Source: Astropecten irregularis (taxonomy: Eukaryota > Echinodermata > Asteroidea > Paxillosida > Astropectinidae). Taken from it: 64,000 bases of DNA. Positions 3,182-63,945 of this stretch are shown here, in pieces (within the stretch, counting starts at the first letter, position 1; the number at the start of each line of letters is the position of its first letter). The position numbers were made by a program, and so were the translations under genes. The stretch covers positions 34,100,001 through 34,164,000 of the forward strand of contig OZ020244.1 in assembly GCA_963971285.1 (NCBI GenBank). Reading direction: 5' to 3'. The notes below the pieces were generated by a model. That model was not told the DNA's origin and did not search any database. It was given only the letters and a program-made list of their open reading frames with translations.

Positions 3182-3709
3182 ATGAAGCAGGTTTGGCTGT
3201 ACATGTACATTGTGATCACGGTTGCATGTGTTAATGCCCAGCATTGCCGGCCCGGTCAAGAAGGATTTGGTGGTTCTTGCTACCAGCTGCTGAATAAGAC
3301 AATGACTTGGAAAGCAGCATCTAAAGCCTGCTCTGACATGGGAGGGGGCTTGGTGGTTCCTGGCTCCCTCAGTGAGCATGAGTTCATCTGGCAGATGTAC
3401 AAAAGGAAAGTCCAAGAGGGATATATTCAGAAGGGACCTCTCTGGGTTGGCTGTACTGACGGGGAGGAGGAAGGCAAGTGGATGAAGTCTGGTGGGGAAG
3501 GTCAGGAGTGCAACTACTTCAACTGGGAACAAGGAGAGCCAGATGGGGGAAACTGCATCACTATGAGATTTTTAATGGATGGTTTGTTGGCTGACCTAAA
3601 TTGCTCCAATAACAGAGCTACAATGTGCAAGATCTCTACCAGTCCATCTTCTACCCCCAAGATGTTCTGCCTGCAGGCTGATGCCAATGGCCGCTTCACA
3701 GCTCCTTAA
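3182..3709 (+). CDS. Secreted C-type lectin-like protein (class B 5' flank)
   Basis: This is a 175-residue single-exon gene. Residues 1-19 form a signal peptide (hydrophobic, ending VNA before QHC). The CTLD follows with cysteines at 22, 33, 50, 91, 110, 125, 141, 149 and 163. Cys22/Cys33 look like the N-terminal pair of long-form CTLDs; Cys50/Cys149 and Cys125/Cys141 fit the two canonical pairs; Cys91/Cys110 would be an extra pair, leaving Cys163 in the tail unpaired. WVGC (88-91) replaces the usual WIGL. EPD (119-121) sits at the calcium/sugar site, but LAD (136-138) replaces WND, so the Trp is lost here although the close copy at 7293 keeps it. N-glycosylation sequons are NKT at 38 and NCS at 140. 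The start ATG has A at -3. The gene is nearly identical to those at 35826 and 56741. Confidence 0.93.
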   Translation: MKQVWLYMYIVITVACVNAQHCRPGQEGFGGSCYQLLNKTMTWKAASKACSDMGGGLVVPGSLSEHEFIWQMYKRKVQEGYIQKGPLWVGCTDGEEEGKWMKSGGEGQECNYFNWEQGEPDGGNCITMRFLMDGLLADLNCSNNRATMCKISTSPSSTPKMFCLQADANGRFTAP

Positions 3710-4731
3710 CTCACCAGTCATACCATCATCACATCATAAATAATTAGAAGTCCATTCTTTGCTGAGGATTAGCCTATCATCATGAAATCAAACAGCAGAT
3801 AACTGAACAGAACACTTGCAGTTTAACCTACAAGTAGACTGAAACTCAGCCCATTGGATACAAGGCAAGTTCTATATTGATCTACAAAACATTATTTGTA
3901 AATATTTGATTTTTCTAAGGCTTTAAAACACAATACACAGAGGATATGTTTTAAAACTAATCCCATGATGGAATGACTCATGAGGTGATAAAATACGATC
4001 ATTAAAGTAAAATTTCTAGAATCATTGAATAGCACTTTGTGCTCATGAAGTGAATATTCAGAGAAAATAACAATAGGAAGCAACTTGATCAAGTGTCTAT
4101 GAAGAAAATGTAAAATATTTGAAATATCAAGAAATGAAAAAAGATAGAAAACAGAAAATTTTGCAAATGATGTTCAACATTTTAAAATGTTGATCATATA
4201 TTTGCCTCAGGCCCTACCTGAAAGATGCTTTTAAAAGCATCTTTCAGGCAAGGCAAATATGTTATCCAAAAATAATATATTTTATTTCAGCTAAATGTTT
4301 TTTGTTTTTTTTCTGTTACATATTCCTGCATGACAATGGTTTGATTGGAAAAAAAATTTGGGAGGTTGAGTTGTGAATTTTAGCCAATTAAAAATCAGTA
4401 AATTCTCCATAATATGATAAATCAACTTAACTTTCATTCAATATTAAGTTAATAAATCAAAGCTACCATGTTGAAAATATTATTCATTGACATGAAAAGG
4501 GAGTCAGTGAATACAAATGTGTTGTGTCACCACAGAGTGGGGATAAAGTCCCACAAATCCAAAATGGAGATAAGAAAAGGGGCTATCCAACAGAAAATGA
4601 AACCTGAGACCATTCTGAAGATTTCAAGGAGCAGAGGTCAATAAACCTTTGCCTCTGAAAAGCTGAACAGACTCATGAAACCTACTGAATTTCCAACTCA
4701 TTTTGTTGATATGTTTTAAACATTTTGGATA

Positions 4732-4776
4732 TTCTGCCTGCAGGCTGATGCCAATGGCCGCTTCACAGCTCCTTAA
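4732..4776 (+). pseudogene. Relic of a lectin gene 3' end (last 14 codons and stop)
   Basis: These 45 bases encode the invariant last 14 residues of the family (Phe-Cys to Ala-Pro) and the stop, with no CTLD upstream. The left neighbour is the distal intergenic sequence that normally lies about 1 kb past a gene, and the right neighbour is a 3' flank unlike the common one. This is best read as a deletion scar: a former gene lost its body, leaving only its end. The downstream sequence leads into a class E 5' flank and the truncated copy at 6172. Confidence 0.8.
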
Positions 4777-5299
4777 AACTGACATAACTTACAAGTCAAG
4801 GAATTAACAATGAGAGGCTTTTTCTTTGAGTCTGTGGTGATCCACAAACATGAAATTAAGCAGCAAACCTCAGGTGAAACTGCGGCACTGAAACATTCAT
4901 GAAAAAATCTCAATATGAAACTCATTTTAATTTCTTTTCAAGAATTGGAAATTTGTTTAGGCATGGGAATCCAAAATCAAAAAACAATAAAAAAAGAAAT
5001 TGATAATTTAAAGGACAAACTTGATTCATTAATAGAATTCTTTACTGGAGGAATCACAGGTATATGAAAAATAGAAAGAAAGATCCTGCAGATAACTCAT
5101 AAAACATTGCCTTTTTTCTGCACAAACCAATTGGTTTGCACGTGTTTGTTACTTGGTGACACCGCAATTTTACTTTTATGAATATGGAAATTCTCATTTG
5201 CAATACAAACTAAAAACTTGTAAACACACCCTGAAACAGCGGTGAAAGTGGATAAAATCACAGACATGTTATAGAATAACTGTTCAAGATGTAAAGTTA

Positions 5300-5439
5300 T
5301 TTGAATCCCACCTGAGCCAGCATGTGACTTTTTTCACATGCTCTCACAAGCACTGAGTATACACATAGAGCTACTGTATACAGTGCTCATCCATGTCGGT
5401 GAAGGGCTAGCCTAATTTGCATTATATCTATTTCCCGAA
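5300..5439 (+). mobile_element. 5'-truncated tRNA-SINE fragment in class E 5' flank
   Basis: From TTTGAATCCCACCTGAGC (remains of the B box) to TTTGCATTATATCTATTTCC this matches the minus strand of the 62-kb SINE units, in plus orientation here, with an extra palindromic insertion near 5360. The A-box half is missing, so it is inactive. Confidence 0.78.
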
Positions 5440-6171
5440 AAAAAACATTTAATGTTCATGAGAAAGTATAATGACTGGAAATTTTGTGGCAAAATTTTCC
5501 ACAATTAATGTTTGAAGTTGTTTTATTTTGGTGGTTTTAGATTGGGAATATTTGTGTTTAGCATCAATTTCAAAAAGAATAAAATTCTTTTGACATTTTG
5601 TGTGAAGCCTGAACCTTGGCCTAATGGTGAGATGTGCAGTGTATAAAGACACGTCACTTCACTATTAAAACTGTTCTCAGTTGATGTAAAAAGCACCATT
5701 TCCTGAGAAATACATTAACATTGATTGCAACAATGGGGCACATTTACAGGCATCACTGTTCGCTAAATGAATATCGACAAGTGTAACTCACCAACACCAG
5801 AAAATAGCAACCTGCTATGATGAGAAGATATGTGCATATGTAATGAGACGGTGTGACTTCATGGTGTCAGTGATGGTGTGAATAAATGCACTTCATGAAG
5901 ATAATATTCTTGATAACTTCACTCACTGAGATCGTCGGCATAGCTAGCCTACATGGACATGTAGGAGTGTCTGCTTTTATACAATTTCTAAAGCATTTGC
6001 TGCCAAATTTTCCCTCTACTTGAACAGTAGAAGAGACAGTTAACAATCAGTTTGAATACAGGAACACTTTGCTGTCCCAACAGACTGAGAGAGCAATTTA
6101 CAGACCAAAGACAGAATTGAACATCAACAAACTTCAGCATCTTTATCTGAAAGTGTGTCAGCATAAACACA

Positions 6172-6315
6172 ATGGAGCTCTGTTGGCCGTATTTCATGTT
6201 CATGGTAGCAGGTGTTTATGCCCAGCATTGCCAGCCTGGTCAAGAAGGATTTGGTGGTTCTTGCTACCAGCTGCTGAATAAGACAATGACTTGGGAAGCA
6301 GCATCTAAAGCCTGA
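6172..6315 (+). pseudogene. Truncated lectin gene (class E), 47 codons
   Basis: The reading frame begins with the class E signal peptide (MELCWPY..., as in 25476) and continues through QHC, GSC and the first CTLD helix to Ser-Lys-Ala. It then stops at a TGA formed where the coding sequence is joined to distal intergenic DNA. Intact paralogs read AAAGCCTG-CTCTGACATG at this point; here AAAGCCTG runs straight into AAATTAATTTCTTG, a sequence normally found about 1.5 kb past a stop codon (compare 2210). A TG/TGAA microhomology lies at the joint, so a deletion removed the rest of the gene and most of its 3' flank. A secreted peptide of about 30 residues could still be made, but without the domain core it cannot fold as a CTLD. 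The same break is present at 38816. Confidence 0.85.
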
Positions 6316-7292
6316 AATTAATTTCTTGTAGCAAACATAGCTCTTATTATGCCACAACTGTTGCTTGAATGTTGTAAAAGATATTGAATCATTAACTCTT
6401 TCACTTTCTTCAAATGCTCTCACAATTATAGGCCTATTTGGCTGCTTGGAGAATTCAATGTGTAGAAAATGAAATTTCATTATGTGTAGTCAGCATTAAT
6501 GCTATTAACAGGTTAAGACATTAAGCCCCACCCACCCACAAAAGGAAAATATGAAGAGTTGCCGTTTTTTATCATAAAGGATGGTATTTACTGTATAGAC
6601 ATTAATTCTATCCGTTTATTGAAAGCTTGAAGCTGCAGCAAAAGAGGACTCATTTAGGACATTTTTTACAATGTTTTATAATGATTGACATTTTCAAAAA
6701 CCCTCTCTGTTTACCTGCTACTTATTTCCCTTCATAGAAACAGTTGCCATAGCAACAAGTCACAGAATGGTATTAATAAAAGGGATGAACATTGTAGATG
6801 CCTGTGGTCCAATGCTAGACAATATTGATTCTCATAGCCTCAAAGCTTCTATCCTGTGTTTATCTTGAGACGGACTGTTTACAAACTGTCATTTGTAATA
6901 TCTTCATAGAATTGTCAGGGTAGTATTTACATGAAGTAAAGGCAGAGTCTGATATAAACGGACCTCATTCTGACTCCAACGGTTTCTACGTTCAGACACT
7001 GAATCAGCAAAATCACTCAGAAACAAGTTGATCGCTTCAACCACAGAGCAAGTATCTTTTCTGTACACATCTAAAGAGTGGTAACAAACATTTCTTCTGA
7101 GGCATGCTCTAAAGGTGACACTTGATTTATTTGTAACAGACACACTGCAAAGTGAATGAAACCTTTCATGTACAAGGCATGTGATCATCAGTATTCAACA
7201 AATCTAGAGATATAGAAACTTGATTTGAAACTGGTGAACTTCAGAGTACCATAACTTCACTTTGAGACTACAATCTTCGGTTTGAATCCAGT

Positions 7293-7820
7293 ATGAAGCA
7301 GGTTTGGCTGTACATGTACATTGTGATCACGGTTGCATGTGTTAATGCCCAGCATTGCCGGCCCGATCAAGAAGGATTTGGTGGTTCTTGCTACCAGCTG
7401 CTGAATAAGACAATGACTTGGAAAGCAGCATCTAAAGCCTGCTCTGACATGGGAGGGGGCTTGGTGGTTCCTGGCTCCCTCAGTGAGCATGAGTTCATCT
7501 GGCAGATGTACAAAAGGAAAGTCCAAGAGGGATATATTCAGAAGGGACCTCTCTGGGTTGGCTGTACTGACAAGGAGGAGGAAGGCAAGTGGATGAAGTC
7601 TGGTGGGGAAGGTCAGGAGTGCAACTACTTCAACTGGGAACAAGGAGAGCCAGATGGGGGAAACTGCATCACTATGAGATTTTTAATGGATGGTCTGTGG
7701 GCAGACCTAAATTGCTCCAATAACAGAGCTACAATGTGCAAGATCTCTACCAGTCCATCTTCTACCCCCAAGATGTTCTGCCTGCAGGCTGATGCCAATG
7801 GCCGCTTCACAGCTCCTTAA
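7293..7820 (+). CDS. Secreted C-type lectin-like protein (class B 5' flank)
   Basis: This 175-residue protein differs from the one encoded at 3182 at very few places: Asp25 for Gly (RPDQEG), Lys94 for Gly, and Trp136 retained (GLWADLNC). It has EPD at 119-121 and WAD at 136-138, so Trp and Asp of the WND motif are present and only Asn is replaced. Sequons are NKT at 38 and NCS at 140. The gene sits 977 bp after the truncated class E copy and shares the class B 5' flank (about 6.5-7.29 kb) with 3182. Its 3' flank is unusual for carrying three insertions: a poly(T)-ended retroposon (8269), a 571-bp element (8531) and a TTAA MITE (9273). It is copied at 39937 with one change near the C terminus. 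Confidence 0.93.
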   Translation: MKQVWLYMYIVITVACVNAQHCRPDQEGFGGSCYQLLNKTMTWKAASKACSDMGGGLVVPGSLSEHEFIWQMYKRKVQEGYIQKGPLWVGCTDKEEEGKWMKSGGEGQECNYFNWEQGEPDGGNCITMRFLMDGLWADLNCSNNRATMCKISTSPSSTPKMFCLQADANGRFTAP

Positions 7821-8268
7821 CTCACCAGTCATACCATCATCACATCCTAACTAATTCGAAGTCCATTCTTTGCTAAGTGTCTACATTTGACGATTAGCCT
7901 ATCATCATGAAATCAAACAGCAGATAACTGAACAGAACACTTGCAGTTTAACCTACAAGTAGACTGAAACTCAGCCCATTGGATACAAGGCAAGTTCTAT
8001 ATTGATGTCTAAAACATACTGGTCATCATTTGTAATTATTTGTTTTCTGTAAGGCTATAAAAACACAATACACAGAGGATATGTTTTAAAACTAATCCCA
8101 TAATGAAATGAATCATGAGGTGATAAAATACGATCATGAAAGTAAAACATCTAGAATAATTGAAGAGTACGTTGTGCTCATGAAGTGAATATTCAGAGAA
8201 AATAATAATAGGAACTTAGGAAGCAACTTGATCAAGTGACTATGAAGAAAATGTAAAATATTTGAAAT

Positions 8269-8398
8269 TTTTTTTTTTTTTTATGGAAGTCGCCCAACAC
8301 AAGGCACAAAGGCCACTCGAGGTGAGGGCTAAAAAAGAAAGAGAAAGGAAAAGAAAGCGCACAGAATTAAGATAACAGAAACCTATTCACATTGCACA
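8269..8398 (-). mobile_element. Short retroposon with A-tail, minus strand
   Basis: A run of about 15 T starts the insert, then ATGGAAGTCGCCCAACACAA and a purine-rich stretch. Empty paralogs read TTTGAAATATCAAGAAATG. TGAAAT occurs on both sides (8263-8268, 8399-8404), a likely short target duplication. On the minus strand this is a 3'-end fragment of a LINE or SINE with a poly(A) tail. The duplicate is at 40913-41043. Confidence 0.7.
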
Positions 8399-8530
8399 TG
8401 AAATATCAAGAAATATCAAGAAATGAAAAAGATAGAAAATAGTGCAATTCATGTTCACCATTTTAAAATGTTGATCATATATTTGCCTTAGGCCTTACCT
8501 AAAAGATGCTTTTTAAAGCATCTTTCAGCA

Positions 8531-9101
8531 TAGTCTGGTTCCCGGACCCAAAAAGCGCCAGACTATTGTCTGTCAAATATAGGGTCCGGTATCGGCTACG
8601 TGTACTGGAGGGTCACGTGACCAAAAAGACCAAGTTTTGGCTTTTTACGGAAAAATCCGAAACATTACGAACTCGTTTTCGTTCAACTTCGGATAGCAAC
8701 GTTGACTTTCGGCTATTTCCGACAGGTCACGCGAGGTCATGTACTTCAGGGAAAGACAGGTCGTGTACATATGTTTCATTCCGGCTACAGTTAGCCCAAA
8801 TAGAGCATAATTATTGTCCACATACAACAGAGCACTTTTCCTAATCATGCACTTTTTAGGAGTTTGTTGTATGGTTTTTTTCCCACTCTTTGATTTCTTA
8901 TTCTGTCCAGATAAAATTGCATGTGCTTACAAAAGTGCAAAAATTAATGCTAAAATTGAATCTCGCTAAACTCTAAAACTAGCTTCCGCGCCTGCGCAGA
9001 CATGACAGCTGTGTCATGTTCTATTTTTAACCGTAGCCGATACCTGACCTAAGATTTTTAATAAGAGACGTCGGGGAATCTTTGGGCAGGGAACCAGACT
9101 A
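8531..9101. mobile_element. 571-bp non-autonomous DNA transposon, 9-bp target duplication
   Basis: The ends are TAGTCTGGTTCCC and GGGAACCAGACTA (perfect 13-bp inverted repeats). CTTTCAGCA is duplicated on both sides (8522-8530, 9102-9110). The insertion lies in the right arm of the conserved 3'-flank palindrome. Nine-bp duplications are typical of Mutator-like elements, though terminal repeats are usually longer there. Open frames inside (8506-8848) are probably fortuitous. Confidence 0.88.
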
Positions 9102-9272
9102 CTTTCAGCAAATATGTTATCCAAAAATAATGTTTGTGGTTATTTTCTGTTTAATATTCCTGCATGACAATGGTTTGATTGGAAAACATTCTGGGAGGTT
9201 GAGTTGTGAATTTTAGCAAATCAAAAATCATATATGATATGATAAACCAACTTAAATTTCATTCAATATTAA

Positions 9273-9659
9273 AGGGAGCATACATGATTTGCAAAGATGT
9301 GCGTTTTGGCTGAATTTGGTACTTAAACAGAAATGTGGGTCTTAACTTCCTTACAGACATTGTTTCATGTACCTTTTTACACTTTGTTCATCTGAATAGC
9401 AGAAATACGATCAAAATAATCTTAAACCCCTTTTGAATTCTTCACGGTTACACCACGCTTTCGAAATGCTACTAAATCGTTCGGACGAATGATCTTTTTA
9501 AAAGACACTATAAAATCTTGATTTCCTTGAAAAACCCAGCATCTGATGAACCAAGATTTCCCATGGTGACTGTTTGCACTGTTTACGAACTGTTGAGTCC
9601 ATTTTCTGTCTCAAACTCAATAACTTTTTTTTAGGCCTTGCAAATCCTGTACGCTGCCT
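9273..9659. mobile_element. TTAA-flanked MITE, family M1
   Basis: This is another M1 copy with the right end closest to consensus (GCTGCCT before TTAA). It lies in the 3' flank of the gene at 7293. Confidence 0.85.
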
Positions 9660-10734
9660 TTAAGACAATAAATCAAAGCTACCATGTTGAAAATAGTATT
9701 TTTTGACATGTGAATTAAAAAGGGAGTCACTGAATACAAACCTGTTGTGTCACCACAGAGTGGGGATAAAATCCCACAACTCCAAACTGGAGATAAGAAA
9801 AGGGGCTATCCAACAGAAAATGAAACCTGAGACCATTCTGAAGATTTCAAGGAGCAGAGGTCAATAAACCTTTGCCTCTGAAAAGCTGAACAGACTCATG
9901 AAACCTGCTGAATTTTCAACTCATTTTGTTACATGACTCAACATTTTGGAATTTTAATTATATTATTATGTGAAATGTACATTACAAGTGAAATACTTTC
10001 CTTGAAGATATTATTGCATTTTGTGATACAGTATGTAAAATATTCAATTTTGTTGGTGTTAAGAGATTGTAGATATAAATATAATAAATATCACAGGTAG
10101 TTGAAATTAATTTCTTGTAGCACACATAGATCCTATTATGCCACAACTGTTGCTTGAATGTTGTAAAAGATATTGAATCATTAACTCTTTCACTTTCCTC
10201 AAATGCTCTCACAATTATAACTGGCTGCTTGGAGAATTCAATGTGTAGAAAATGAAGTTTAATCATGTGCAGTCTGCATTAATGCTATTAACAGCTTGAG
10301 ACATTAAGCCCCGCCCACAACAATTGACCAATCAGCTGACACTGTTGGTCAATAAATATTCAGGGTTGCTTTTGATATTATGTTGTAATTGGCTGGTTAT
10401 TTTGAAGGTTGGTTTAAACAATATGAGAAATAAGGCCTTACCAGTAATTAGAATGACCGGGTACATTTTAAATTTTCATTCAAAGCTTGAAGATGCAGCA
10501 AAAAACGGGTTATATTTTGGCCGTTTTCGTATAGGTTTAAAATGATACAGATTCTAAACACCCTCTCTATTACCTGCTATACTTATTTCCCTTTGTAGAA
10601 ACAGTTGCCACAGCAACAAATCAAATGTTATTAATAAAACGGACGATAAATCCTAATATGTTTGGTCCTGCAGTAAGAAATTGAGTCTCATAACCTCATT
10701 CCCAGAGCTTTATTTAATGTAACTGCATATATCT

Positions 10735-11035
10735 GGTATGTGGGTCGGTTTGCGGAAACACCATGTAATAATCGTTCGTACTTTCGCACTTCTATATCCT
10801 TCGCACTTCTATATCCTTTGCACTTCTCGCAATTAAGGTCTCAACGTTTCGACTAGCCTGCTCTAGTCCTCATCAGGAGACGTTGAGACCTAATTGCGAG
10901 AAGTGCGAACGATATAGAAGTGCAAACGATATAGAAGTGCGAACGATATAGAAGTGCGAACGATATAGAAGTGCGAAAGTATGAACGATTATTACATGGT
11001 GTTTCCGCAAACCGATCCACATACCAATTGTCACC
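10735..11035. repeat. Foldback element with 17-bp minisatellite arms (copy 1)
   Basis: The outer arms (GGTATGTGGGTCGGTTTGCG and its near complement ending CCACATACC) enclose tandem copies of a 17-bp unit, GAACGATATAGAAGTGC, in opposite orientation on the two sides: about two on the left, four on the right. The centre is a nested hairpin: AGGTCTCAACG to CGTTGAGACCT enclosing GACTAG-CCTGCT-CTAGTC. GCATATATCTGG occurs just outside both ends. It lies about 1.6 kb before the class A gene. Confidence 0.82.
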
Positions 11036-11482
11036 ATGCAAAGCCTCAAATCTTTCTTGCATATATCTGGACAAGGCACTTCATAATAACCTAAACATAG
11101 ATTGGAATTTGGACAGATGCACAAGTTGTACCATGGTTAATTCAACAATCCAGAATCTGGGCATAATCATCAAATTAACAAAAGGGAAAATGAATGGTGA
11201 TCCCAGTCAGAAGCCATACAACCACTCACATACCTTGATATCCCAAGGATCATTGAAGATACGCGCAACATTAGCAATGCTGCAAGCTGAGAAACGGTAT
11301 ATGGGGGATCACTCAAAGAGATTGTGACTTTTTGATCAATATAATCATCAAATAACCACTACGGAAACTAAAAAAATGTTGTTGTTTTTTTCAATAAAAA
11401 TGATATTGTGTGCTTTATGGATGAAAAAAGCTGAAAAACTACTCTTTTTAATTTCAATGAAAAACATCATGGACCAACTTAA

Positions 11483-11849
11483 AGGGATGGTACAGAATTG
11501 GTAAGACAAAATACACTTCATGATCACAGATTCACACAAAACTTACACAGTATAATGGTGATGATAGGAGAAAACATCACATGAAATGTTTTTGTCTGAA
11601 ATGCCATATTCGTTGAGAAATAAATGAAACTATTTTCCGATTGGAATAAATCGCTTCGAAGCATTTTATTCATTCGTTGAAATGTGTACAGTTCTCTGTA
11701 CACGGGTTTTCACAATTTTCTCGTGACCCAGATGGCTGATTGACCTCAAACTTCTACAGGTTTGTCAGTTAAGGTATATGATGGATTACATAATGTGCTT
11801 TCACTATCAGCAACGGCTTTGTCGCAAAAACCAGTTCTGTACCATCCCT
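11483..11849. mobile_element. TTAA-flanked MITE, family M2
   Basis: The 367-bp element starts AGGGATGGTACAGAA and ends TTCTGTACCATCCCT, a perfect 15-bp terminal inverted repeat, and is bounded by TTAA on each side (11479-11482, 11850-11853). The related region near 31614 has the empty site CAACTTAATGGC with one TTAA, which proves insertion. Superfamily is piggyBac or Kolobok by target site. Confidence 0.92.
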
Positions 11850-12671
11850 TTAATGGCTAAAAAAAAAATAGAAAAAAAGAGTGCAGATACACAGCTTCAA
11901 GAACTAACCATTTATATCAGGCCAGAAACGAGGAGTTTATAATTCCGTCTTTCTTTTTAAATGCTTGAGGATTTTTGAAAATTGTAGATATAGTTTGAAT
12001 GAATATGATTGAAATATGATGAAAATTCTTGGTTTTTTATGTGTTCCTGTTAATTTTTTTTCATTTTAGACAGTTGATAGCAATAAGTTAGAGGACAAAT
12101 TAAGCACACGAATGCAACAGCCTTGTCCATGTGATCAATCGCCGTTAATAACTTACACACATAGCCTCATTTCTAGTGCATGGAGTTTCTGCATATTCTA
12201 AGTAGACTTGGCATTGAAATGAGAATGATACGTGTTTGGATTCTGCTATTAAATACCAGAGAAAATCCTATGCATTATATCATGTACTTATCAGTACATG
12301 CTCATAAGCTCTGCACAGGTTCATGACAAATGGTCTTCATTTACCTCAGTGGTCTGAACCAGGACAATTCCAAATCATTAGCAGAACTTTCTCTACAAAA
12401 GTGGATTCTTGATTAGTATTTCAAGAACCATTCCCAACAAAACATTCTTCTCTTCAGTTTGTGAGGTAGCAGTTTAGGTATCAGATTCTTCAAGCAAGAC
12501 TGATGCTGCATTGTGAAAGTACATGTAACAATGTATGGATGTATGTAGAGTGATTATCTTCATTCATATTTCTTCAAGAGAATTACAGAATTGAGTGAGT
12601 TACAGAGAAGGAAAATTGACTATTCATCAAATCATAACCAGACTTCAAACGTGAACAACTGTAAATGCAAC

Positions 12672-13199
12672 ATGAAGCAGGTTTGGCTGTACATGTACTC
12701 TGTGATCACGGTTGCATGTGTTTATGCCCAGCATTGCCGGCCTGGTCAAGAAGGATTTGGTGGTTCTTGCTACCAGCTGCTGAAAAAGACAATGACTTGG
12801 GAAGCAGCATCTAAAGCCTGCTCTGACATGGGAGGGGGCATGGCGGTTCCTGACTCCCTCAGTGAGCATGAGTTCATCTGGCAGATGTACAAAAGGAAAG
12901 TACAAGAGAGATATATTAAGATGGGACCTCTCTGGGTTGGCTGTACTGACAAGGAGGAGGAAGGCAAGTGGATGAAGTCTGGTGGGGAAGGTCAGGAGTG
13001 CAACTACTTCAACTGGGCAGAAGGACAGCCAGATAAGAGAGATTGCATTGTAATGTCATATGCAAATGTTGGTCTGTGGAGTACCCTAAGATGCCCCTCT
13101 ACTAGAGCTGCAATGTGCGAGTTCTCTACCAGTCCATCTTCTACCCCCAAGATGTTCTGCCTGCAGGCTGATGCCAATGGCCGCTTCACAGCTCCTTAA
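12672..13199 (+). CDS. Secreted C-type lectin-like protein (class A), chimeric gene
   Basis: I place the start at the ATG of MKQVWLY (12672), which is conserved in the family and opens the signal peptide. The frame stays open upstream to 12591, but no upstream ATG is shared by class A genes: the codon at the MNNCK position is GTG here and ATG only at 32424. The protein has 175 residues. The 5' part (LLKKTMTW, lacking the NKT sequon, and a GGGMAVPDS segment) resembles 45317. From about residue 79 (ERYIKMG, QPDKRDC, GLWSTLRC) to the stop it is identical to 32445, 53363 and the gene at 1-329. The 3' flank also follows the 32445 type. The switch falls between about 12845 and 12905, so the gene looks like the product of crossing-over or conversion inside the coding exon. 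A hAT-type element sits 83 bp past the stop. Confidence 0.92.
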   Translation: MKQVWLYMYSVITVACVYAQHCRPGQEGFGGSCYQLLKKTMTWEAASKACSDMGGGMAVPDSLSEHEFIWQMYKRKVQERYIKMGPLWVGCTDKEEEGKWMKSGGEGQECNYFNWAEGQPDKRDCIVMSYANVGLWSTLRCPSTRAAMCEFSTSPSSTPKMFCLQADANGRFTAP

Positions 13200-13282
13200 C
13201 TCACCAGTCATACCATCATCACATCCTAACTAATTAGAAGTCCATTCTTTGCTAAGTGTCTACATTTGAGGATTAGCCTATC

Positions 13283-17379: not shown

Positions 17380-17907
17380 ATGAAGCAGGTTTGGCTGTAC
17401 ATGTACATTGTGATCACGGTTGCATGTGTTTATGCCCAGCATTGCCGGCCCGGTCAAGAAGGATTTGGTGGTTCTTGCTACCAGCTGCTGAATAAGACAA
17501 TGACTTGGGAAGCAGCATCTAAAGCCTGCTCTGACATGGGAGGGGGCTTGGTGGTTCCTGACTCCCTCAGTGAGCATGAGTTCATCTGGCAGATGTACAC
17601 AAGGAAAGTCCAAGAGGGATACATTCCACAGGGACCTCTCTGGGTTGGCTGTACTGACGAGGAGGAGGAAGGCAAGTGGATGAAGTCTGGTGGGGAAGGC
17701 CAGGAGTGCAACTACTTCAACTGGGCAGACGGACAGCCAGATGGGGGAGATTGCATTATTATGAGATTTCAAAATGATGGTCAGTGGAATGACCTAAATT
17801 GCCCCAAAAGCAAAGCTACAATGTGCAAGTTCTCTACCAGTCCATCTTCTACCCCCAAGATGTTCTGCCTGCAGGCTGATGCCAATGGCCGCTTCACAGC
17901 TCCTTAA
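17380..17907 (+). CDS. Secreted C-type lectin with intact QPD and WND motifs (class C)
   Basis: This 175-residue gene has the best-preserved sugar-binding site in the window. QPD lies at 119-121 and WND at 136-138 (GQWNDLNC), with Asp124 before the conserved Cys125. In established CTLD biology QPD plus WND coordinates calcium and favours galactose or N-acetylgalactosamine, so this is the member most likely to be a true lectin. The signal peptide is residues 1-19 (VYA before QHC); the NKT sequon is at 38; all nine family cysteines are present. Residues 81-84 read YIPQ, shared with 25476. The class C 5' flank contains a TATA-like TTATAAAA at 16968 and an 8-bp-stem hairpin at 16984-17005, both also before 22923. 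Confidence 0.94.
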   Translation: MKQVWLYMYIVITVACVYAQHCRPGQEGFGGSCYQLLNKTMTWEAASKACSDMGGGLVVPDSLSEHEFIWQMYTRKVQEGYIPQGPLWVGCTDEEEEGKWMKSGGEGQECNYFNWADGQPDGGDCIIMRFQNDGQWNDLNCPKSKATMCKFSTSPSSTPKMFCLQADANGRFTAP

Positions 17908-22922: not shown

Positions 22923-23450
22923 ATGAAGCAGGTTTGGCTGTACATGTACATTGTGATCATGGTTGCATGTGTTTATGCTCAGCATTGCCGGCCTGGTCAA
23001 GAAGGATTTGGTGGTTCTTACTACCAGCTGCTGAATAAGACAATGACTTGGAAAGCAGCATCTAAAGCCTGCTCTGACTTGGGAGGGGGCGTGGCAGTTC
23101 CTGACTCCCTCAGTGAGCACGAGTTCATCTGGCAGGTGTACAAAAGGAAAGTCCAAGAGGGATATATTCAACTCAACCATCTCTGGGTTGGCTGTACTGA
23201 CAAGGAGGAGGAAGGCAAATGGATGAAGTCTGGTGGGGAAGGTCAGGAGTGCAACTACTACAACTGGGCACCAGGGAAGCCAGATGGGAGAGATTGCATT
23301 GCTATGACATATAAAAAGGGTGGTCAGTGGGTTGACGCACTCTGTTATCCTCTAAAAGCTACAATGTGCGAATTCTCGACCAGTCCATCTTCTACCCCCA
23401 AGATGTTCTGTCTGCAGGCTGATGCCAATGGCCGCTTCACAGCTCCTTAA
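22923..23450 (+). CDS. Secreted C-type lectin-like protein lacking one N-terminal Cys (class C)
   Basis: This is a 175-residue family member. The second cysteine of the N-terminal pair is changed: GSYYQLL instead of GSCYQLL, so Cys22 has no partner and total cysteines fall to eight. Other private changes are Leu53 (SDLGGG), Val72 (WQVYKRK), QLNHLWVGC in place of the usual GPLWVGC, and a Tyr in NYYNW. The sugar-site loop is APGKPDGRDC, with KPD at the EPN/QPD position and GQWVDALC, so WVD replaces WND. The frame is fully open with no premature stop, which argues for a functional divergent member, though relaxed constraint is possible. The 5' flank from about 22.38 kb is the class C type shared with 17380. 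Confidence 0.92.
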   Translation: MKQVWLYMYIVIMVACVYAQHCRPGQEGFGGSYYQLLNKTMTWKAASKACSDLGGGVAVPDSLSEHEFIWQVYKRKVQEGYIQLNHLWVGCTDKEEEGKWMKSGGEGQECNYYNWAPGKPDGRDCIAMTYKKGGQWVDALCYPLKATMCEFSTSPSSTPKMFCLQADANGRFTAP

Positions 23451-25475: not shown

Positions 25476-25997
25476 ATGGAGCTCTGTTGGCCGTATTTAA
25501 TGTTAATGGTAGCAGGTGTTTATGCCCAGCATTGCCGGCCTGGTCAAGAAGGATTTTGTGGTTCTTGCTACCAGCTGCTGAATAAGACAATGACTTTGGA
25601 AGCAGCATCTAAAGCCTGCTCTGACATGGGAGGGGGCTTGGTGGTTCCTGACTCCCTCGGTGAGCAAGAGTTCGTCTGGCAGATGTACAAAGGGAAAGTC
25701 CAAGAGGGATATATTCCACAGGGACCTCTCTGGGTTGGCTGTACTGACAAGGAGGAGGAAGGCAAGTGGATGAAGTCTGGTGGAGAAGGTCAGGAGTGCA
25801 ACTACTTCAACTGGGCAGAAGGAGAGCCAGATGGGAGAGATTGCATTGGTATGAAATATCAAGATGATGGTCTATGGTATGACCAAAGCTGTTCCTTTAC
25901 TAGAGCTACAATGTGCAAGTTCTCTACCAGTCCATCTTCTACCCCTAAGATGTTCTGCCTGCAGGCTGATGCCAATGGCCGCTTCACAGCTCCTTAA
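25476..25997 (+). CDS. Secreted C-type lectin-like protein (class E, 173 aa)
   Basis: This is the only complete gene with the class E signal peptide (MELCWPYLMLMVAGVYA), two residues shorter than classes A-C. ATG is followed by G and preceded by A at -3. An extra cysteine appears in the N-terminal hairpin (GFCGSC, residues 27-31), making ten in the mature chain. The site motif is EPD at 117-119 with GLWYDQSC, so WYD replaces WND; YIPQ matches 17380. The 5' flank from 24.46 kb matches the region before both truncated copies at 6172 and 38816 and contains a fragment of the tRNA-derived SINE. This gene therefore shows what those truncated copies once were. Confidence 0.93.
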   Translation: MELCWPYLMLMVAGVYAQHCRPGQEGFCGSCYQLLNKTMTLEAASKACSDMGGGLVVPDSLGEQEFVWQMYKGKVQEGYIPQGPLWVGCTDKEEEGKWMKSGGEGQECNYFNWAEGEPDGRDCIGMKYQDDGLWYDQSCSFTRATMCKFSTSPSSTPKMFCLQADANGRFTAP

Positions 25998-39936: not shown

Positions 39937-40464
39937 ATGAAGCAGGTTTGGCTGTACATGTACATTGTGATCACGGTTGCATGTGTTAATGCCCAGCATT
40001 GCCGGCCCGATCAAGAAGGATTTGGTGGTTCTTGCTACCAGCTGCTGAATAAGACAATGACTTGGAAAGCAGCATCTAAAGCCTGCTCTGACATGGGAGG
40101 GGGCTTGGTGGTTCCTGGCTCCCTCAGTGAGCATGAGTTCATCTGGCAGATGTACAAAAGGAAAGTCCAAGAGGGATATATTCAGAAGGGACCTCTCTGG
40201 GTTGGCTGTACTGACAAGGAGGAGGAAGGCAAGTGGATGAAGTCTGGTGGGGAAGGTCAGGAGTGCAACTACTTCAACTGGGAACAAGGAGAGCCAGATG
40301 GGGGAAACTGCATCACTATGAGATTTTTAATGGATGGTCTGTGGGCAGACCTAAATTGCTCCAATAACAGAGCTACAATGTGCAAGATCTCTACCAGTCC
40401 ATCTTCTACCCCCAAGATGTTCTGCCTGCAGGCTGATGCCAATGGCTGCTTCACAGCTCCTTAA
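39937..40464 (+). CDS. Secreted C-type lectin-like protein (class B), copy of 7293
   Basis: The 175-residue product matches 7293 (Asp25, Lys94, EPD, WAD) except at residue 171, where CGC has become TGC, so Arg is Cys (NGCFTAP). This adds a tenth cysteine, eight residues after Cys163 in the otherwise invariant tail. It is the only gene in the window that breaks the tail sequence. It could add a tail disulfide or simply be a recent polymorphism; the C-to-T change at a CpG is what methyl-cytosine decay would produce. Confidence 0.93.
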   Translation: MKQVWLYMYIVITVACVNAQHCRPDQEGFGGSCYQLLNKTMTWKAASKACSDMGGGLVVPGSLSEHEFIWQMYKRKVQEGYIQKGPLWVGCTDKEEEGKWMKSGGEGQECNYFNWEQGEPDGGNCITMRFLMDGLWADLNCSNNRATMCKISTSPSSTPKMFCLQADANGCFTAP

Positions 40465-45316: not shown

Positions 45317-45844
45317 ATGAAGCAGGTTTGGCTGTACATGTACACTGTGATCACGGTAGCATGCGTTTATGCCCAGCATTGCCGGCCTGGTCAAGAAGGA
45401 TTTGGTGGTTCTTGCTACCAGCTGCTGAAAAAGACAATGACTTGGGAAGCAGCATCTAAAGCCTGCTCTGACATGGGAGGGGGATTGGCGGTTCCTGACT
45501 CCCTCAGTGAGCATGAGTTCATCTGGCAGATGTACAAAAGGAAAGTCCAAGAGGGATATATTAAGATGGGACCTCTCTGGGTTGGCTGTACTGATGAGGA
45601 GGAGGAAGGCAAGTGGATGAAGTCTGGTGGGGAAGGTCAGGAGTGCAACTACTTCAACTGGGCAGACGGACAGCCAGATAGGAGAGATTGCATTGTAATG
45701 TCATATGCAAATGTTGGTCTGTGGAGTGCCCTAAGATGCTCCACTACTAGAGCTGCAATGTGCGAGTTCTCTACCAGTCCATCTTCTACCCCCAAGATGT
45801 TCTGCCTGCAGGCTGATGCCAATGGCCGCTTCACAGCTCCTTAA
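45317..45844 (+). CDS. Secreted C-type lectin-like protein (class A)
   Basis: The ATG of MKQVWLY at 45317 is the start; upstream frame extension to 45296 relies on GTG and is not credible. The product has 175 residues, lacks the NKT sequon (LLKKTMTW), and has EGYIKMG, Glu94, QPD at 119-121 followed by RRDC, and GLWSALRC, so WSA stands at the WND position. It resembles the 5' half of 12672 most closely and keeps a loop that is a diverged form of the 32445 loop (ADG for AEG, STTRAA for PSTRAA). It lies at the end of the second copy of the large block, where similarity to the first copy falls. Confidence 0.93.
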   Translation: MKQVWLYMYTVITVACVYAQHCRPGQEGFGGSCYQLLKKTMTWEAASKACSDMGGGLAVPDSLSEHEFIWQMYKRKVQEGYIKMGPLWVGCTDEEEEGKWMKSGGEGQECNYFNWADGQPDRRDCIVMSYANVGLWSALRCSTTRAAMCEFSTSPSSTPKMFCLQADANGRFTAP

Positions 45845-48384: not shown

Positions 48385-48906
48385 ATGAAACTAGTTTGGC
48401 TGTATTTAGCACTCATTGTCGGGCATGTTCAAGCCCAGCATTGCCGGCCCAGTCAAGAAGGATTTGGTGGTTCTTGCTACCAGCTGCTGAATAAGACAAT
48501 GACTTGGGAAGCAGCATCTAAAGCCTGCTCTGACATGGGAGGGGGCTTGGTGGTTCCTGACTCCCTCAGTGAGCAAGAGTTCATCTGGCAGATGTACAAA
48601 AGGAAAGTCCAAGAGGGATATATTCAGAGGGGACCTCTCTGGGTTGGCTGTACTGACAAGGAGGAGGACGGCAAGTGGATGAAGTCTGGTGGGGAAGGTC
48701 AGGAATGCAACTACTTCAACTGGGCAGACGGGAAGCCAGGTGGGAGAGATTGCATTGCTATGAAATATCTCAAGGATGGTCAGTGGGATGACCTAAGCTG
48801 CTTCTATAACAGATATACAATGTGCAAGTTCTCTACCAGTCCATCTTCTACCCCCAAGATGTTCTGCCTGCAGGCTGATGCCAATGGCCGCTTCACAGCT
48901 CCTTAA
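48385..48906 (+). CDS. Secreted C-type lectin-like protein (class D, 173 aa)
   Basis: The signal peptide is of the class D form (MKLVWLYLALIVGHVQA), giving 173 residues. The sugar-site loop reads ADGKPGGRDC, so even the Asp of the PD pair is replaced by Gly (KPG at 117-119), which should abolish a standard calcium-2 site. GQWDDLSC keeps Trp and Asp of WND. Asp96 replaces Glu in the KEEDGKW stretch, and FYNRYTMC is private to this gene. The NKT sequon and all nine cysteines are present. The 5' flank (47.85-48.38 kb) is shared only with 63424. Confidence 0.93.
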   Translation: MKLVWLYLALIVGHVQAQHCRPSQEGFGGSCYQLLNKTMTWEAASKACSDMGGGLVVPDSLSEQEFIWQMYKRKVQEGYIQRGPLWVGCTDKEEDGKWMKSGGEGQECNYFNWADGKPGGRDCIAMKYLKDGQWDDLSCFYNRYTMCKFSTSPSSTPKMFCLQADANGRFTAP

Positions 48907-51360: not shown

Positions 51361-51361
51361 C

Positions 51362-53362: not shown

Positions 53363-53890
53363 ATGAAGCTGGTTTGGCTGTACATGTATTCTGTGATCAC
53401 GGTTGCATGTGTTTATGCCCAGCATTGCCGGCCTGGTCAAGAAGGATTTGATGGTTCTTGCTACCAGCTGCTGAATAAGACAATGACTTGGGAAGCAGCA
53501 TCTAAAGCCTGCTCTGACATGGGAGGGGGCTTGGTGGTTCCTGACTCCCTCAGTGAGCATGAGTTCATCTGGCAGATGTACAAAAGGAAAGTACAAGAGA
53601 GATATATTAAGATGGGACCTCTCTGGGTTGGCTGTACTGACAAGGAGGAGGAAGGCAAGTGGATGAAGTCTGGTGGGGAAGGTCAGGAGTGCAACTACTT
53701 CAACTGGGCAGAAGGACAGCCAGATAAGAGAGATTGCATTGTAATGTCATATGCAAATGTTGGTCTGTGGAGTACCCTAAGATGCCCCTCTACTAGAGCT
53801 GCAATGTGCGAGTTCTCTACCAGTCCATCTTCTACCCCCAAGATGTTCTGCCTGCAGGCTGATGCCAATGGCCGCTTCACAGCTCCTTAA
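53363..53890 (+). CDS. Secreted C-type lectin-like protein (class A), copy of 32445
   Basis: From the conserved MKLVWLY start the 175-residue product is identical to 32445. The codon at the upstream MNNCK position is GTG here, which supports the inner ATG as the real start. It is 20,918 bp from 32445 and begins the third copy of the class A plus class B gene pair. Identical coding sequence in three places indicates very recent duplication or active homogenisation. Confidence 0.93.
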   Translation: MKLVWLYMYSVITVACVYAQHCRPGQEGFDGSCYQLLNKTMTWEAASKACSDMGGGLVVPDSLSEHEFIWQMYKRKVQERYIKMGPLWVGCTDKEEEGKWMKSGGEGQECNYFNWAEGQPDKRDCIVMSYANVGLWSTLRCPSTRAAMCEFSTSPSSTPKMFCLQADANGRFTAP

Positions 53891-55001: not shown

Positions 55002-55093
55002 TTAATTTTTCAAAGCTACCATGTTGAAATTAGTATTTTTTGACATGTGAATTAAAAAGGGAGTCACTGAATACAAATGTGTTGTGTCACCAC

Positions 55094-56740: not shown

Positions 56741-57268
56741 ATGAAGCAGGTTTGGCTGTACATGTACATTGTGATCACGGTTGCATGTGTTAATGCCCAG
56801 CATTGCCGGCCCGGTCAAGAAGGATTTGGTGGTTCTTGCTACCAGCTGCTGAATAAGACAATGACTTGGAAAGCAGCATCTAAAGCCTGCTCTGACATGG
56901 GAGGGGGCTTGGTGGTTCCTGGCTCCCTCAGTGAGCATGAGTTCATCAGGCAGATGTACAAAAGGAAAGTCCAAGAGGGATATATTCAGAAGGGACCTCT
57001 CTGGGTTGGCTGTACTGACGAGGAGGAGGAAGGCAAGTGGATGAAGTCTGGTGGGGAAGGTCAGGAGTGCAACTACTTCAACTGGGAACAAGGAGAGCCA
57101 GATGGGGGAAACTGCATCACTATGAGATTTTTAATGGATGGTTTGTTGGCTGACCTAAATTGCTCCAATAACAGAGCTACAATGTGCAAGATCTCTACCA
57201 GTCCATCTTCTACCCCCAAGATGTTCTGCCTGCAGGCTGATGCCAATGGCCGCTTCACAGCTCCTTAA
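56741..57268 (+). CDS. Secreted C-type lectin-like protein (class B), third copy of 3182 type
   Basis: This 175-residue gene matches 3182 and 35826 apart from Arg70 for Trp (EFIRQMY) and Glu94 for Gly. The Trp70-to-Arg change falls in the second CTLD helix region and also occurs independently at the matching residue of 63424. EPD and LAD are kept at the sugar site. It is followed by a 3' flank that switches at about 57.7 kb from the 3182 type to the type found after 17380. Confidence 0.93.
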   Translation: MKQVWLYMYIVITVACVNAQHCRPGQEGFGGSCYQLLNKTMTWKAASKACSDMGGGLVVPGSLSEHEFIRQMYKRKVQEGYIQKGPLWVGCTDEEEEGKWMKSGGEGQECNYFNWEQGEPDGGNCITMRFLMDGLLADLNCSNNRATMCKISTSPSSTPKMFCLQADANGRFTAP

Positions 57269-61942: not shown

Positions 61943-61956
61943 AGATTTGACCCTGC

Positions 61957-62215
61957 AAATTAGGCTTGCCCTTCACCGACGTGGCCGGATGAGCACTGTA
62001 TACTCAGTGCTTGTGAGAGCACGTGAGAAAAAACCACATGCTTGCTCAGGTGTGATTCGAACCCACGACTTCCTGCTTACTAGTGCAGATGCCTTACCTG
62101 CTATAGGCCACCGAGCTAGCTGGGGTCTGCAGGGTGAATCGAATCCAATATCGCGGTGGGTACCGCAGTAAATCATGAATATTGATGATTTTTGGTCGGG
62201 AAATAGATAATATGC
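61957..62215 (-). mobile_element. tRNA-derived SINE, tandem unit 1 (259 bp)
   Basis: This is unit 1 of a tandem array with exact 259-bp period. On the minus strand it contains an A-box-like TAGCTCGGTGG and a B box GGTTCGAATC, here altered by one base (GGTGTGATTCG on the plus strand), so its internal promoter is weaker than in the other units. The variable spot reads GCTTACTAG. Confidence 0.8.
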
Positions 62216-62474
62216 AAATTAGGCTTGCCCTTCACCGACGTGGCCGGATGAGCACTGTATACTCAGTGCTTGTGAGAGCACGTGAGAAAAAACCACATGC
62301 TTGCTCAGGTGGGATTCGAACCCACGACTTCCTGCTAACTAGTGCAGATGCCTTACCTGCTATAGGCCACCGAGCTAGCTGGGGTCTGCAGGGTGAATCG
62401 AATCCAATATCGCGGCGGGTACCGCAGTAAATCATGAATATTGATGATTTTTGGTCGGGAAATAGATAATATGC
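62216..62474 (-). mobile_element. tRNA-derived SINE, tandem unit 2
   Basis: On the minus strand the unit shows A-box-like TAGCTCGGTGG, a B box GGTTCGAATCC (complement of 62312-62322) and a perfect 5-bp T-arm GTGGG-TTCGAAT-CCCAC, then a non-tRNA tail reaching TTTGCATATTATCTATTTC. Variable spot GCTAACTAG. It is tRNA-derived but not a functional tRNA: the anticodon arm is irregular. Confidence 0.82.
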
Positions 62475-62733
62475 AAATTAGGCTTGCCCTTCACCGACGT
62501 GGCCGGATGAGCACTGTATACTCAGTGCTTGTGAGAGCACGTGAGAAAAAACCACATGCTTGCTCAGGTGGGATTCGAACCCACGACTTCCTGCTTACTA
62601 GTGCAGATGCCTTACCTGCTATAGGCCACCGAGCTAGCTGGGGTCTGCAGGGTGAATCGAATCCAATATCGCGGCGGGTACCGCAGTAAATCATGAATAT
62701 TGATGATTTTTGGTCGGGAAATAGATAATATGC
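62475..62733 (-). mobile_element. tRNA-derived SINE, tandem unit 3
   Basis: Its variable spot is GCTTACTAG, like unit 1 and unlike units 2 and 4, which suggests that a two-unit block was amplified. A and B boxes are intact. Confidence 0.82.
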
Positions 62734-62883
62734 AAATTAGGCTTGCCCTTCACCGACGTGGCCGGATGAGCACTGTATACTCAGTGCTTGTGAGAGCACG
62801 TGAGAAAAAACCACATGCTTGCTCAGGTGGGATTCGAACCCACGACTTCCTGCTAACTAGTGCAGATGCCTTACGTGCTATAG
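62734..62883 (-). mobile_element. tRNA-derived SINE, truncated tandem unit 4
   Basis: The unit is cut in the tRNA-like part just before the A box, where class D flank sequence begins. GATTTGACCCTGCA lies on both sides of the whole array (61944-61957 and 62883-62896), which could be a target duplication. Confidence 0.8.
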
Positions 62884-62884
62884 A

Positions 62885-63945
62885 TTTGACCCTGCACTCT
62901 CAATCAATTCAGACTGCAGATCATCATCCCAAGAGCTTTAATTTTGATCATATCACATTGGAAGGCTGTGTTTACACATGAGTATTAAGAATGACATGCC
63001 TGTTTATAACTTCATTAAATCAGCTTTTCATACATGTACCCATCTAGGGGGCTTATATGTGCTGCATCATCAGCTAAGTAAGGCAGTGTCTGATAAAGGC
63101 TTCATCCCGACTACATGCTTTCGAAACGCCTGTATAAACCATTCTGAAGCAAGGGGATCACATTTTGAATATCCCAAGAGTGATGAGGAAAGTTTGACTT
63201 GAGGTCTGTTAGAGAAGTGACTGATTGTTTCTTTTTCAAAGACTTGATATCTGCTTTTACTTGGAGTATTACGTGAATGGACACTTAGCTGTATGTGATC
63301 ATTTGCATTGAACACACCCAAAGATACAGACAGTAAAACTGCACGAGATTTAAGATACGACAGAGATCGTCGTCTCATATTCTAACTGACTTTGAACGTG
63401 AACTTTTCAGTTTTCAACTCAACATGAAACTAGTTTGGCTGTATTTAGCACTCATTGTCGGGCATGTTCAAGCCCAGCATTGCCGGCCCAGTCAAGAAGG
63501 ATTTGGTGGTTCTTGCTACCAGCTGCTGAATAAGACAATGACTTGGGAAGCAGCATCTCAAGCCTGCTCTGAGATGGGAGGGGGCATGGCAGTTCCTGAC
63601 TCCCTCAGTGAGCAAGAGTTCATCCGGCAGATGTACAAAAGGAAAGTCCAAGAGGGATATATTCAGATGGGACCTCTCTGGGTTGGCTGTACTTACAAGG
63701 AGGAGGAAGGCAAGTGGATGAAGTCTGGTGGGGAAGGTCAGGAGTGCAACTACTTCAACTGGGCACCAGGGAAGCCAGGTGGGGGAGATTGCATTGCTAT
63801 GATATATAAAAAGGGTAGTCTATGGTATGACCCAAGTTGCTCCTATAACAGAGCTGCAATGTGTGAGTTCTCTACCAGTCCATCTTCTACCCCCAAGATG
63901 TTCTGCCTGCAGGCTGATGCCAATGGCCGCTTCACAGCTCCTTAA
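62885..63945. repeat. Class D gene and 5' flank duplication
   Basis: The sequence from TTTGACCCTGCACTCTC through the class D gene is repeated from 47850 to 48906. The flank shows single-base differences and a few small indels. This is the only region shared by the two class D genes and not by the others. Confidence 0.85.
63424..63945 (+). CDS. Secreted C-type lectin-like protein (class D, 173 aa)
   Basis: This is the second class D gene, with the same signal peptide as 48385. Private or rare features: Gln in place of Lys before Ala-Cys-Ser-Glu (SQACSEMG), Arg for Trp in EFIRQMY, VGCTYKEEEG (Tyr for Asp after Cys), and the loop APGKPGGGDC with KPG, then KKGSLWYDPSC. The loop mixes the APGKP and YKKG pieces seen at 22923 with the LWYD..SC piece seen at 25476 and 28545. 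Downstream of the stop the sequence departs at once from the common 3' flank (no CTCACCAGTCAT block), so its 3' end belongs to a different lineage or has been rearranged. Confidence 0.93.
   Translation: MKLVWLYLALIVGHVQAQHCRPSQEGFGGSCYQLLNKTMTWEAASQACSEMGGGMAVPDSLSEQEFIRQMYKRKVQEGYIQMGPLWVGCTYKEEEGKWMKSGGEGQECNYFNWAPGKPGGGDCIAMIYKKGSLWYDPSCSYNRAAMCEFSTSPSSTPKMFCLQADANGRFTAP

Follow-up and report, generated by a model that had tools for sequence, protein, structure and literature searches.

The array and its genes

The window analysed here is a stretch of 64,000 nucleotides from the sea star Astropecten irregularis (positions 34100001–34164000 of contig OZ020244.1; the assembly, GCA_963971285.1, comprises 475.7 Mb in 168 contigs). 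It holds a tandem family of genes for C-type lectin-like domain (CTLD) proteins, with 15 complete, uninterrupted open reading frames (ORFs) of 173–175 amino acids, all on the + strand and within 3182..63945 of the window. Four of the window proteins were scanned with the Pfam profile Lectin_C (PF00059) and scored 49.8–60.4 bits, against a cut-off of 22.6. Judged by eye, the N-terminus of the CTLD proteins is a predicted signal peptide, and they are probably secreted. An earlier note on this DNA had proposed that the copies differ mainly in the sugar-binding loop of the domain and that specificity, at the calcium and sugar contacts, appears to be the target of diversification.

In the following, each gene is named by its first nucleotide in the window, the loop stands for codons 116–147, the frame for codons 20–115 plus 148–175, and the letters A to E for classes of 5' DNA. 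Class A genes, all of 175 amino acids, are found at 3182..3709 (loop 3527–3622; the codons 83–86 discussed below are 3428–3439), 7293..7820 (loop 7638–7733), 28545..29072 (loop 28890–28985, whose end is unlike that of the remaining class A copies), 35826..36353 (loop 36171–36266; coding sequence, or CDS, identical to that of 3182), 39937..40464 (loop 40282–40377) and 56741..57268 (loop 57086–57181). Class B, also with 175 residues, is located at 12672..13199 (loop 13017–13112), 32445..32972 (loop 32790–32885), 45317..45844 (loop 45662–45757) and 53363..53890 (loop 53708–53803). To class C belong 17380..17907 (175 residues; loop 17725–17820, with the sole WND among the 15 window copies) and 22923..23450 (175 residues; loop 23268–23363), where Cys33 is replaced by Tyr. 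The 173-residue genes are 25476..25997 of class D (loop 25815–25910) and, in class E, 48385..48906 (loop 48724–48819) and 63424..63945 (loop 63763–63858). From its stop codon on (63943–63954), copy 63424 reads TAAATCATCACA, against TAACTCACCAGT in the other 14 copies. Besides these intact genes, the + strand of the window carries one copy truncated by the left edge (3..329; whole in the adjoining sequence, from 34099802, + strand), two N-terminal fragments (6190..6312 and its second copy, 38834–38956) and two C-terminal fragments (4729..4773 and 37373–37417).

The array extends beyond the window. Another 200 kb of the same genome was taken, of which 190 kb near the window was joined with it to give 254 kb. 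This sequence contains 44 intact full-length copies arranged in tandem in two oppositely oriented stretches, 15 of them on the − strand (33.747–33.820 Mb) and 29 on the + strand (34.093–34.204 Mb); as the count covers 254 kb and the region 33.82–34.06 Mb lies outside it, 44 is a lower bound for the array. The opposite-orientation stretch (33747037–33820000, loci L017–L024 in our numbering), about 0.3 Mb away, includes an N-terminal fragment at 33787484–33787720. Of the members in the 254 kb that are not intact, 33814720 carries an internal deletion, two are frame-broken (33776261–33776751 and 34095972–34096501, each counted as one copy) and three are N-terminal fragments. Counted as distinct sequences, the 44 copies amount to 38 mature CDS and, in amino acids, 30 loops. 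The cysteines of a CTLD and a WIGL-like core are in place: cysteines 50, 91, 110, 125 and 149 are present in all 44 copies, C141 and W88 in 43. A cysteine at codon 163, in the C-terminal tail, is likewise found in 44/44 copies; it has no obvious partner, and an inter-chain disulfide is possible. The whole genome yielded 1282 Lectin_C candidates, 150 of them scored and matched. A large part of the candidates, on the contigs labelled C23, C25, C26, C9 and C122, are clustered and have no internal stops.

Silent and replacement divergence

Statistics for the window were obtained with 9 representatives (counting methods) or 14 distinct copies (codon models), and those for the wider set with 34 representatives at least 4 nt apart, 10 near-duplicate copies being excluded. 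Variation is concentrated in the loop, as the earlier note had stated. Among the 15 window copies, 60 of the 156 mature codons are amino-acid-variable and 26 of these 60 lie in the 32-codon loop (hypergeometric p=3.7e-8). The densest run of 32 codons begins at codon 116, and 16 of the 23 codons with at least three residues are in the loop. Across the 44 copies, 94 of 156 mature codons vary, including 29 of the 32 loop codons (p=3e-5), and the loop holds 22 of the 39 codons with at least three residues (p=2.6e-9). The loop edge is sharp, with a per-pair amino-acid difference of 0.017 at codons 109–115 versus 0.349 at 116–120. The loop motifs quoted in the note are all present, together with the triplets WST, LAD, WAD, WND, WVD, WYD and WDD that follow them; WSA at 45317 had been overlooked. 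So had a second hypervariable patch at codons 83–86 (start+246 to start+257 in the 175-residue genes), just before the WVG strand. This patch is as variable as the loop (amino-acid difference 0.563; nonsynonymous divergence, dN, 0.43; synonymous divergence, dS, 0.35), the 34 representatives showing 9 different residues at codon 83 and 7 at codon 84. Residues 1–80 and 150–175 had been described as almost fixed, which is not true of the signal-peptide codons 1–19 (dS 0.37, dN 0.19 in 9 representatives) nor of codons 25, 30, 44, 57, 58, 61 and 150–151, which are also variable.

Silent divergence is raised in the loop as well. For the 9 window representatives, dS and dN are 0.230 and 0.344 in the loop (ratio 1.49, bootstrap 0.77–3.39) and 0.069 and 0.042 in the frame; the 34 representatives give 0.218 and 0.296 for the loop and 0.062 and 0.043 for the frame. 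Loop/frame ratios in the wider set, calculated with the Nei–Gojobori method (NG86), are 3.5 for dS (confidence interval, CI, 1.8–6.4) and 6.9 for dN (CI 4.3–10.9), and codon models place the ratio of synonymous rates at 2.6–3.5 (p=0.018 to 7e-5). At amino-acid-conserved codons, i.e. those with a residue kept in at least 80% of copies (the frame set being taken without 83–86), the silent difference is 0.145 in the loop (10 codons) versus 0.034 in the frame (102 codons), 4.3-fold higher (permutation p=0.0012). Third codon positions vary in 21/32 loop codons versus 58/124 frame codons (p=0.07).

These figures bear on the alternative that survives best, namely that only homogenisation is locally lacking: the loop would be old neutral divergence, erased elsewhere by conversion, without selection for change. 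The earlier note had named an equal concentration of synonymous changes in the loop as the sign of this. Since synonymous change is also loop-concentrated, the objection is partly borne out, silent changes being 3–4 times denser there and amino-acid changes about 7 times. The raised silent rates, the third positions and a bootstrap of loop dN/dS that includes 1 all speak for this alternative. We nevertheless consider it unlikely. The nonsynonymous excess is the larger of the two, and codons that vary only synonymously are not enriched in the loop (3/17 in the window; 2/23 in the wider set). Few loop codons keep their amino acid; a silent excess among them is borderline in the window (3/6 vs 14/91, p=0.065) and lacking in the wider set (2/3 vs 21/56, p=0.55). 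The codon models and the comparison of related pairs given below also argue against it.

In the codon models the loop had a tree and a synonymous rate of its own, which prevents faster silent change from passing for selection. For the 14 distinct window copies, with branch lengths optimised, omega was 1.65 in the loop (p=0.057) and 0.76 in the frame (p=0.28 versus 1), and the two differ (p=0.015). The M8 model was preferred over M8a for the window loop with 2d=22.6 (twice the log-likelihood difference; p=2e-6, or p=2e-4 with multinucleotide changes), for its first half (116–134, p=4e-5; 0.002 with multinucleotide changes) and for its second (135–147, p=0.047). In the wider set, where branch lengths were scaled from the nucleotide tree, loop omega was 1.80 (likelihood-ratio test, p=6e-4), 2d was 60.5 (50.4 with multinucleotide changes), and both halves were significant (2d=53.4 for 116–134, 20.2 for 135–147). 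Because the copies recombine, the tests were calibrated by simulation with four independently evolving loop blocks. The observed 2d of 60.5 is above all 20 neutral recombining simulations (maximum 36.2), and a single-omega fit at least as high as that observed (1.82) occurred in 1/300 such simulations (p=0.0066); weight is placed on this calibrated p, above the nominal values. Loop sites with a posterior above 0.9 are 117, 127, 129, 131, 132, 135, 137, 139, 140, 142, 143, 144 and 147. Omega above 1 in the loop is thus supported. Frame omega in the wider set is 0.80, not significantly below 1 (p=0.16), and the frame gives an M8 signal of its own, which is uncalibrated (2d=50.3, at 83–86 and 40, 57, 66, 74, 150). 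Outside the loop dN/dS is 0.6–0.8, and in the tail 0.2–0.4. The expectation in the earlier note of dN/dS above 1 at loop sites therefore stands, with a bootstrap that spans 1, and its expectation of values near 0 elsewhere does not.

A noncoding 3' flank lies beside most genes, and selection and homogenisation are therefore separable. In the window, 28 of the 36 pairs have a 3' flank that can be aligned. Their loops are on average 26.2% diverged, their tails 2.1%, and their frame and flank 5.3% each; the loop is more diverged than the flank in 28/28. The same holds for 178 of the 185 alignable pairs (of 561) in the wider set, with means of 5.0% for the frame (all pairs) and 6.1% for the 3' flank (alignable pairs); the compared pairs are not independent. 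The frame is therefore hardly slower than noncoding DNA, and its likeness between copies chiefly reflects youth or homogenisation. That the reading frame is preserved is supported: among the 9 window representatives not one gap interrupts the mature CDS, whereas their 3' flanks show 9.15 gap openings per kb, and codons 20–174 are gap-free across the 44 copies, although these were chosen as intact.

Four representative pairs of the same 5' class are 2.2–4.2% apart upstream and 5–31% apart in the loop. All four exceed the number of nonsynonymous loop changes expected from the upstream flank, with 24 vs 3.2 for 17380/22923, 16 vs 1.8 for 48385/63424, 10 vs 2.6 for 3182/28545 and 5 vs 1.6 for 12672/45317; in the last pair the whole-loop test is not significant (p=0.16). 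Silent loop changes are also above expectation in the three others. By these tests, both selection and lack of conversion appear to shape loop variation.

Recombination, duplications and upstream groups

Recombination within the loop is supported by the codon-level pairwise homoplasy index (PHI), which is significant in the window at 10 codons (p=0.0006) and in the wider set at 5 (p=0.0002) and 10 codons (p=0.002), though no longer at 15. High-scoring mosaic triplets are also in excess among the 34 representatives (26 vs 3.1 expected, p=0.025). One candidate mosaic, 63424, with a first half like 22923 and a second half like other copies, is plausible by eye; it is not significant family-wise and is not claimed.

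Upstream DNA sorts the 44 copies into eight groups, seven with 3–10 members and one singleton. In the nine window representatives, the 5' groups are mutually unalignable until 8–19 bases before the ATG, and more distal upstream DNA is alignable again between them at 75–95%. The length of this unalignable 5'-proximal zone ahead of the ATG varies among copies, from about 70 to about 1,900 bases. These 5'-proximal groups form a second island of difference and could represent different promoters. From the window it had seemed that the loop follows the 5' class. This was dropped, as same-class and different-class pairs differ little in the 34 representatives (0.198 vs 0.237).

An alignment of the 3' flanks over 400 nt is possible in 8/280 pairs taken between the two stretches of the array, versus 177/281 pairs within a stretch. 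Frame dS is 0.056 between the stretches and 0.061 and 0.046 within them. The value between stretches, no higher than those within, is compatible with coding-frame conversion or recent copying but is no proof of either.

The window also shows recent segmental duplications. One is a 13.3-kb unit with several CTLD genes (1..13282, + strand), 99.57% identical to 32644–45927; another pairs 1–4733 with 53562–58279. Their more divergent edges are located at CTLD genes or shortly behind them, as unequal crossing-over between copies predicts. Copies 12672 and 45317 show a cluster of additional differences that had been considered as a recent gene conversion; it sits at the edge of a duplicated block and could simply reflect the junction. 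Elsewhere in the window, 61954–62883 is a tandem repeat (unit 259 bp, 3.6 copies), and three of its units contain a tRNA according to Rfam, on the − strand (62042–62117, 62301–62376 and 62560–62635). A pattern scan of viral contigs gave no match.

The binding face and its known parallels

HMMER alignment to mannose-binding protein A (MBP-A; 1kmb, 1msb) places codons 116–147 over the calcium loop and last strands; relative to MBP-A, the array proteins are four residues short in the interval from the EPN-like motif to the loop cysteine. The MBP-A ligands Glu185, Asn187, Glu193, Asn205 and Asp206 would correspond in the 1kmb/1msb alignment to positions 119, 121, 123, 137 and 138. A working Ca2+-dependent sugar site whose specificity is diversifying, as the earlier note proposed, would agree with the alignment of the variable positions with the EPN/QPD, Glu193 and WND region, and with the occurrence of QPD in 13, EPN in 1 and WND in 9 of the 44 copies (EPD is found in 10, and WND in 1/15 copies of the window). 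The canonical calcium ligand set is, however, incomplete. Position 123 is Gly in 21, Arg in 21 and Lys in 2 of 44 copies, and never acidic; this placement comes from 1kmb/1msb, an acidic residue standing opposite a gap in the alignment of human MBP (1hup) and opposite position 123 likewise in that of an Endo180 domain. Lys occupies position 119 in 20 copies, N137 and D138 occur together in 9/44, and five ligand-type residues are found in 0/44 copies and four in 6/44. Of the eight best-scoring CTLD loci of the genome (L001–L008, of 150 scored), read by eye, five have Glu where Glu193 would stand and three have Gln; choice by score favours typical domains in this sample. A typical calcium site therefore exists elsewhere in the genome, and is incomplete in the array family. 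A sugar site of this kind is thus distinctly improbable.

The selected sites 127, 129, 131, 139, 140, 143 and 144 are not calcium ligands. For this reason, and given the incomplete ligand set, we interpret what is being diversified as a binding face rather than a sugar pocket as such. From the residues at hand, a changing binding face appears a safer reading than changing sugar specificity, and ligand binding may be calcium-independent or altered. The selected sites may form one face; an AlphaFold model was too poor to place them (mean pLDDT 40) and was not used. Of the earlier proposal, then, selection on the loop and its correspondence to the MBP-A region find support, and a changing sugar specificity does not.

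Targeted mutation of the loop, by a hotspot or a diversity-generating mechanism with little selection, would account for silent and replacement changes that are both raised and drop within a few codons of the loop edge. It is very unlikely in view of omega above 1 and of the bases involved: variable loop positions are spread over all four (23/33 A, 12/15 C, 20/26 G, 13/22 T; 59–80%) and are not adenine-directed like the changes made by diversity-generating retroelements (DGRs). Ten other window ORFs that were scanned gave no match in Pfam (E<=0.01), a check that falls short of a complete reverse-transcriptase search. Relaxed constraint on redundant or dying copies, suggested by a frame omega not significantly below 1 and by the broken copies and fragments, is hardly credible given 44 intact copies against one internally deleted, two frame-broken, three N-terminal fragments and two short C-terminal pieces, a gap-free mature CDS against about 9 gap openings per kb in the 3' flank, and a tail dN/dS of 0.2–0.4.

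We therefore favour, as the probable explanation, a tandem family of recent origin that is still expanding and whose single-CTLD products are probably secreted; in it, positive selection diversifies codons 116–147 and the patch 83–86, while frame, tail and 3' flank stay alike between copies. The best reading is that the loops are older than the young or homogenised frame and recombine within it, while being under positive selection. Unequal crossing-over would expand the array, and recent duplication, plus probably gene conversion, would keep frame, tail and 3' flank similar. Copies with altered loops would be favoured, and loop lineages therefore kept longer, with raised silent divergence, and re-paired. 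As the loop is selected and recombines within itself, new loops probably arise from point change and re-pairing of short segments. The protein, probably secreted, would bind varied ligands via the loop face.

Several observations weigh against this explanation. The M8/M8a comparison is liberal under recombination (11/20 null simulations above 3.84, nominal 5%), and the tree-free codon bootstrap of loop dN/dS in the 34 representatives includes 1 (0.73–2.66; P(<=1)=0.17). Some loops have not diverged: that of 12672 is identical to those of 32445 and 53363 despite 3.2% upstream divergence, 3182 and 7293 are 3.1% apart in the loop against 2.0% upstream, and in 7/71 same-class pairs of the wider set the loop is not above 5'-proximal divergence. 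Regarding recombination, PHI is not significant for the loop at 15 codons (p=0.20, wider set) nor over the whole mature CDS at 10–30 codons, and none of the individual mosaics reaches family-wise significance (p=0.29 for 9 copies; p=0.08 for 34). The nearest neighbour lies in the other stretch for 6.3/34 representatives by frame and 11.5/34 by loop, where 17 are expected; nearest neighbours being mostly in the same stretch, exchange between stretches is therefore limited. The divergent edges of the segmental duplications are equally explicable as crossover junctions, not only by gene conversion. Finally, no AATAAA signal was found within 600 bases of the stop codon in 30/44 copies.

A bolder version, which we regard as doubtful, would be a germline CTLD repertoire resembling V regions. 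Segments of about 6–20 loop codons would be re-paired between genes with a homogenised frame, occasionally between the opposite stretches about 0.3 Mb apart, under positive selection; the face would be calcium-independent and reach beyond sugars, and the 5' classes could allow different expression. By analogy with other systems, a role in recognition is conceivable, in defence or in self or gamete recognition, and the array may give the animal a varied set of binding proteins. The array constitutes a compact natural experiment, one protein frame with about 30 binding loops; its CTLD repertoire seems to be diversifying with a standard set of calcium ligands that is incomplete. The choice between binding face and sugar site is directly testable by expressing a handful of copies.

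With MBP-A and other collectin CTLDs the array shares the same domain by sequence (PF00059; 1kmb and 1msb alignment), from which it differs by a calcium loop four residues shorter and a Glu193 position that is never acidic in 44 copies. The snaclecs of snake venoms, which are among the PDB hits of the CTLD protein, are also fast-evolving CTLDs without a classical sugar site; unlike the array, they are venom proteins. Another parallel is offered by the sea urchin Sp185/333 (SpTransformer) proteins, which are not known to contain a CTLD. Published work on their genes describes tight clusters of similar members, rapid diversification, segmental duplications and suggested gene conversion, as here, and, in contrast to the fragments and broken copies of the CTLD array, microsatellite-bounded units with almost no pseudogenes (PMC5103432). 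The bivalve C1q-domain expansion is likewise a large tandem family of lectin-like recognition proteins with positive selection reported at a few localised sites soon after duplication; it differs by the C1q jelly-roll fold and by negative selection at most other sites (PMC6835236), whereas the CTLD frame is not significantly slower than neutral and loop silent divergence is raised. The oyster sperm bindin F-lectins combine positive selection on the sugar pocket with recombination, and some isoforms lose canonical sugar ligands, according to a review (PMC5712786). The same review attributes to bindin an F-type fold, few genes with repeats and alternative splicing, and recombination in a mid-domain intron, unlike the uninterrupted CTLD ORFs. 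In DGR variable proteins with a C-type lectin fold, variability is reported to be located in the later beta-strands (PMC5006420); the CTLD variation differs in not being adenine-directed and in affecting germline paralogues of an animal. In the lancelet pangenome, C-type lectin domains are reported to be over-represented among dispensable genes (PMC12373286). In the open-licence literature, judged by titles and abstract starts, no CTLD array of this type was recognised. The pattern is already known in kind from tandem oyster C1q genes, bindin F-lectins, Sp185/333 and the C-type lectin folds of DGRs.

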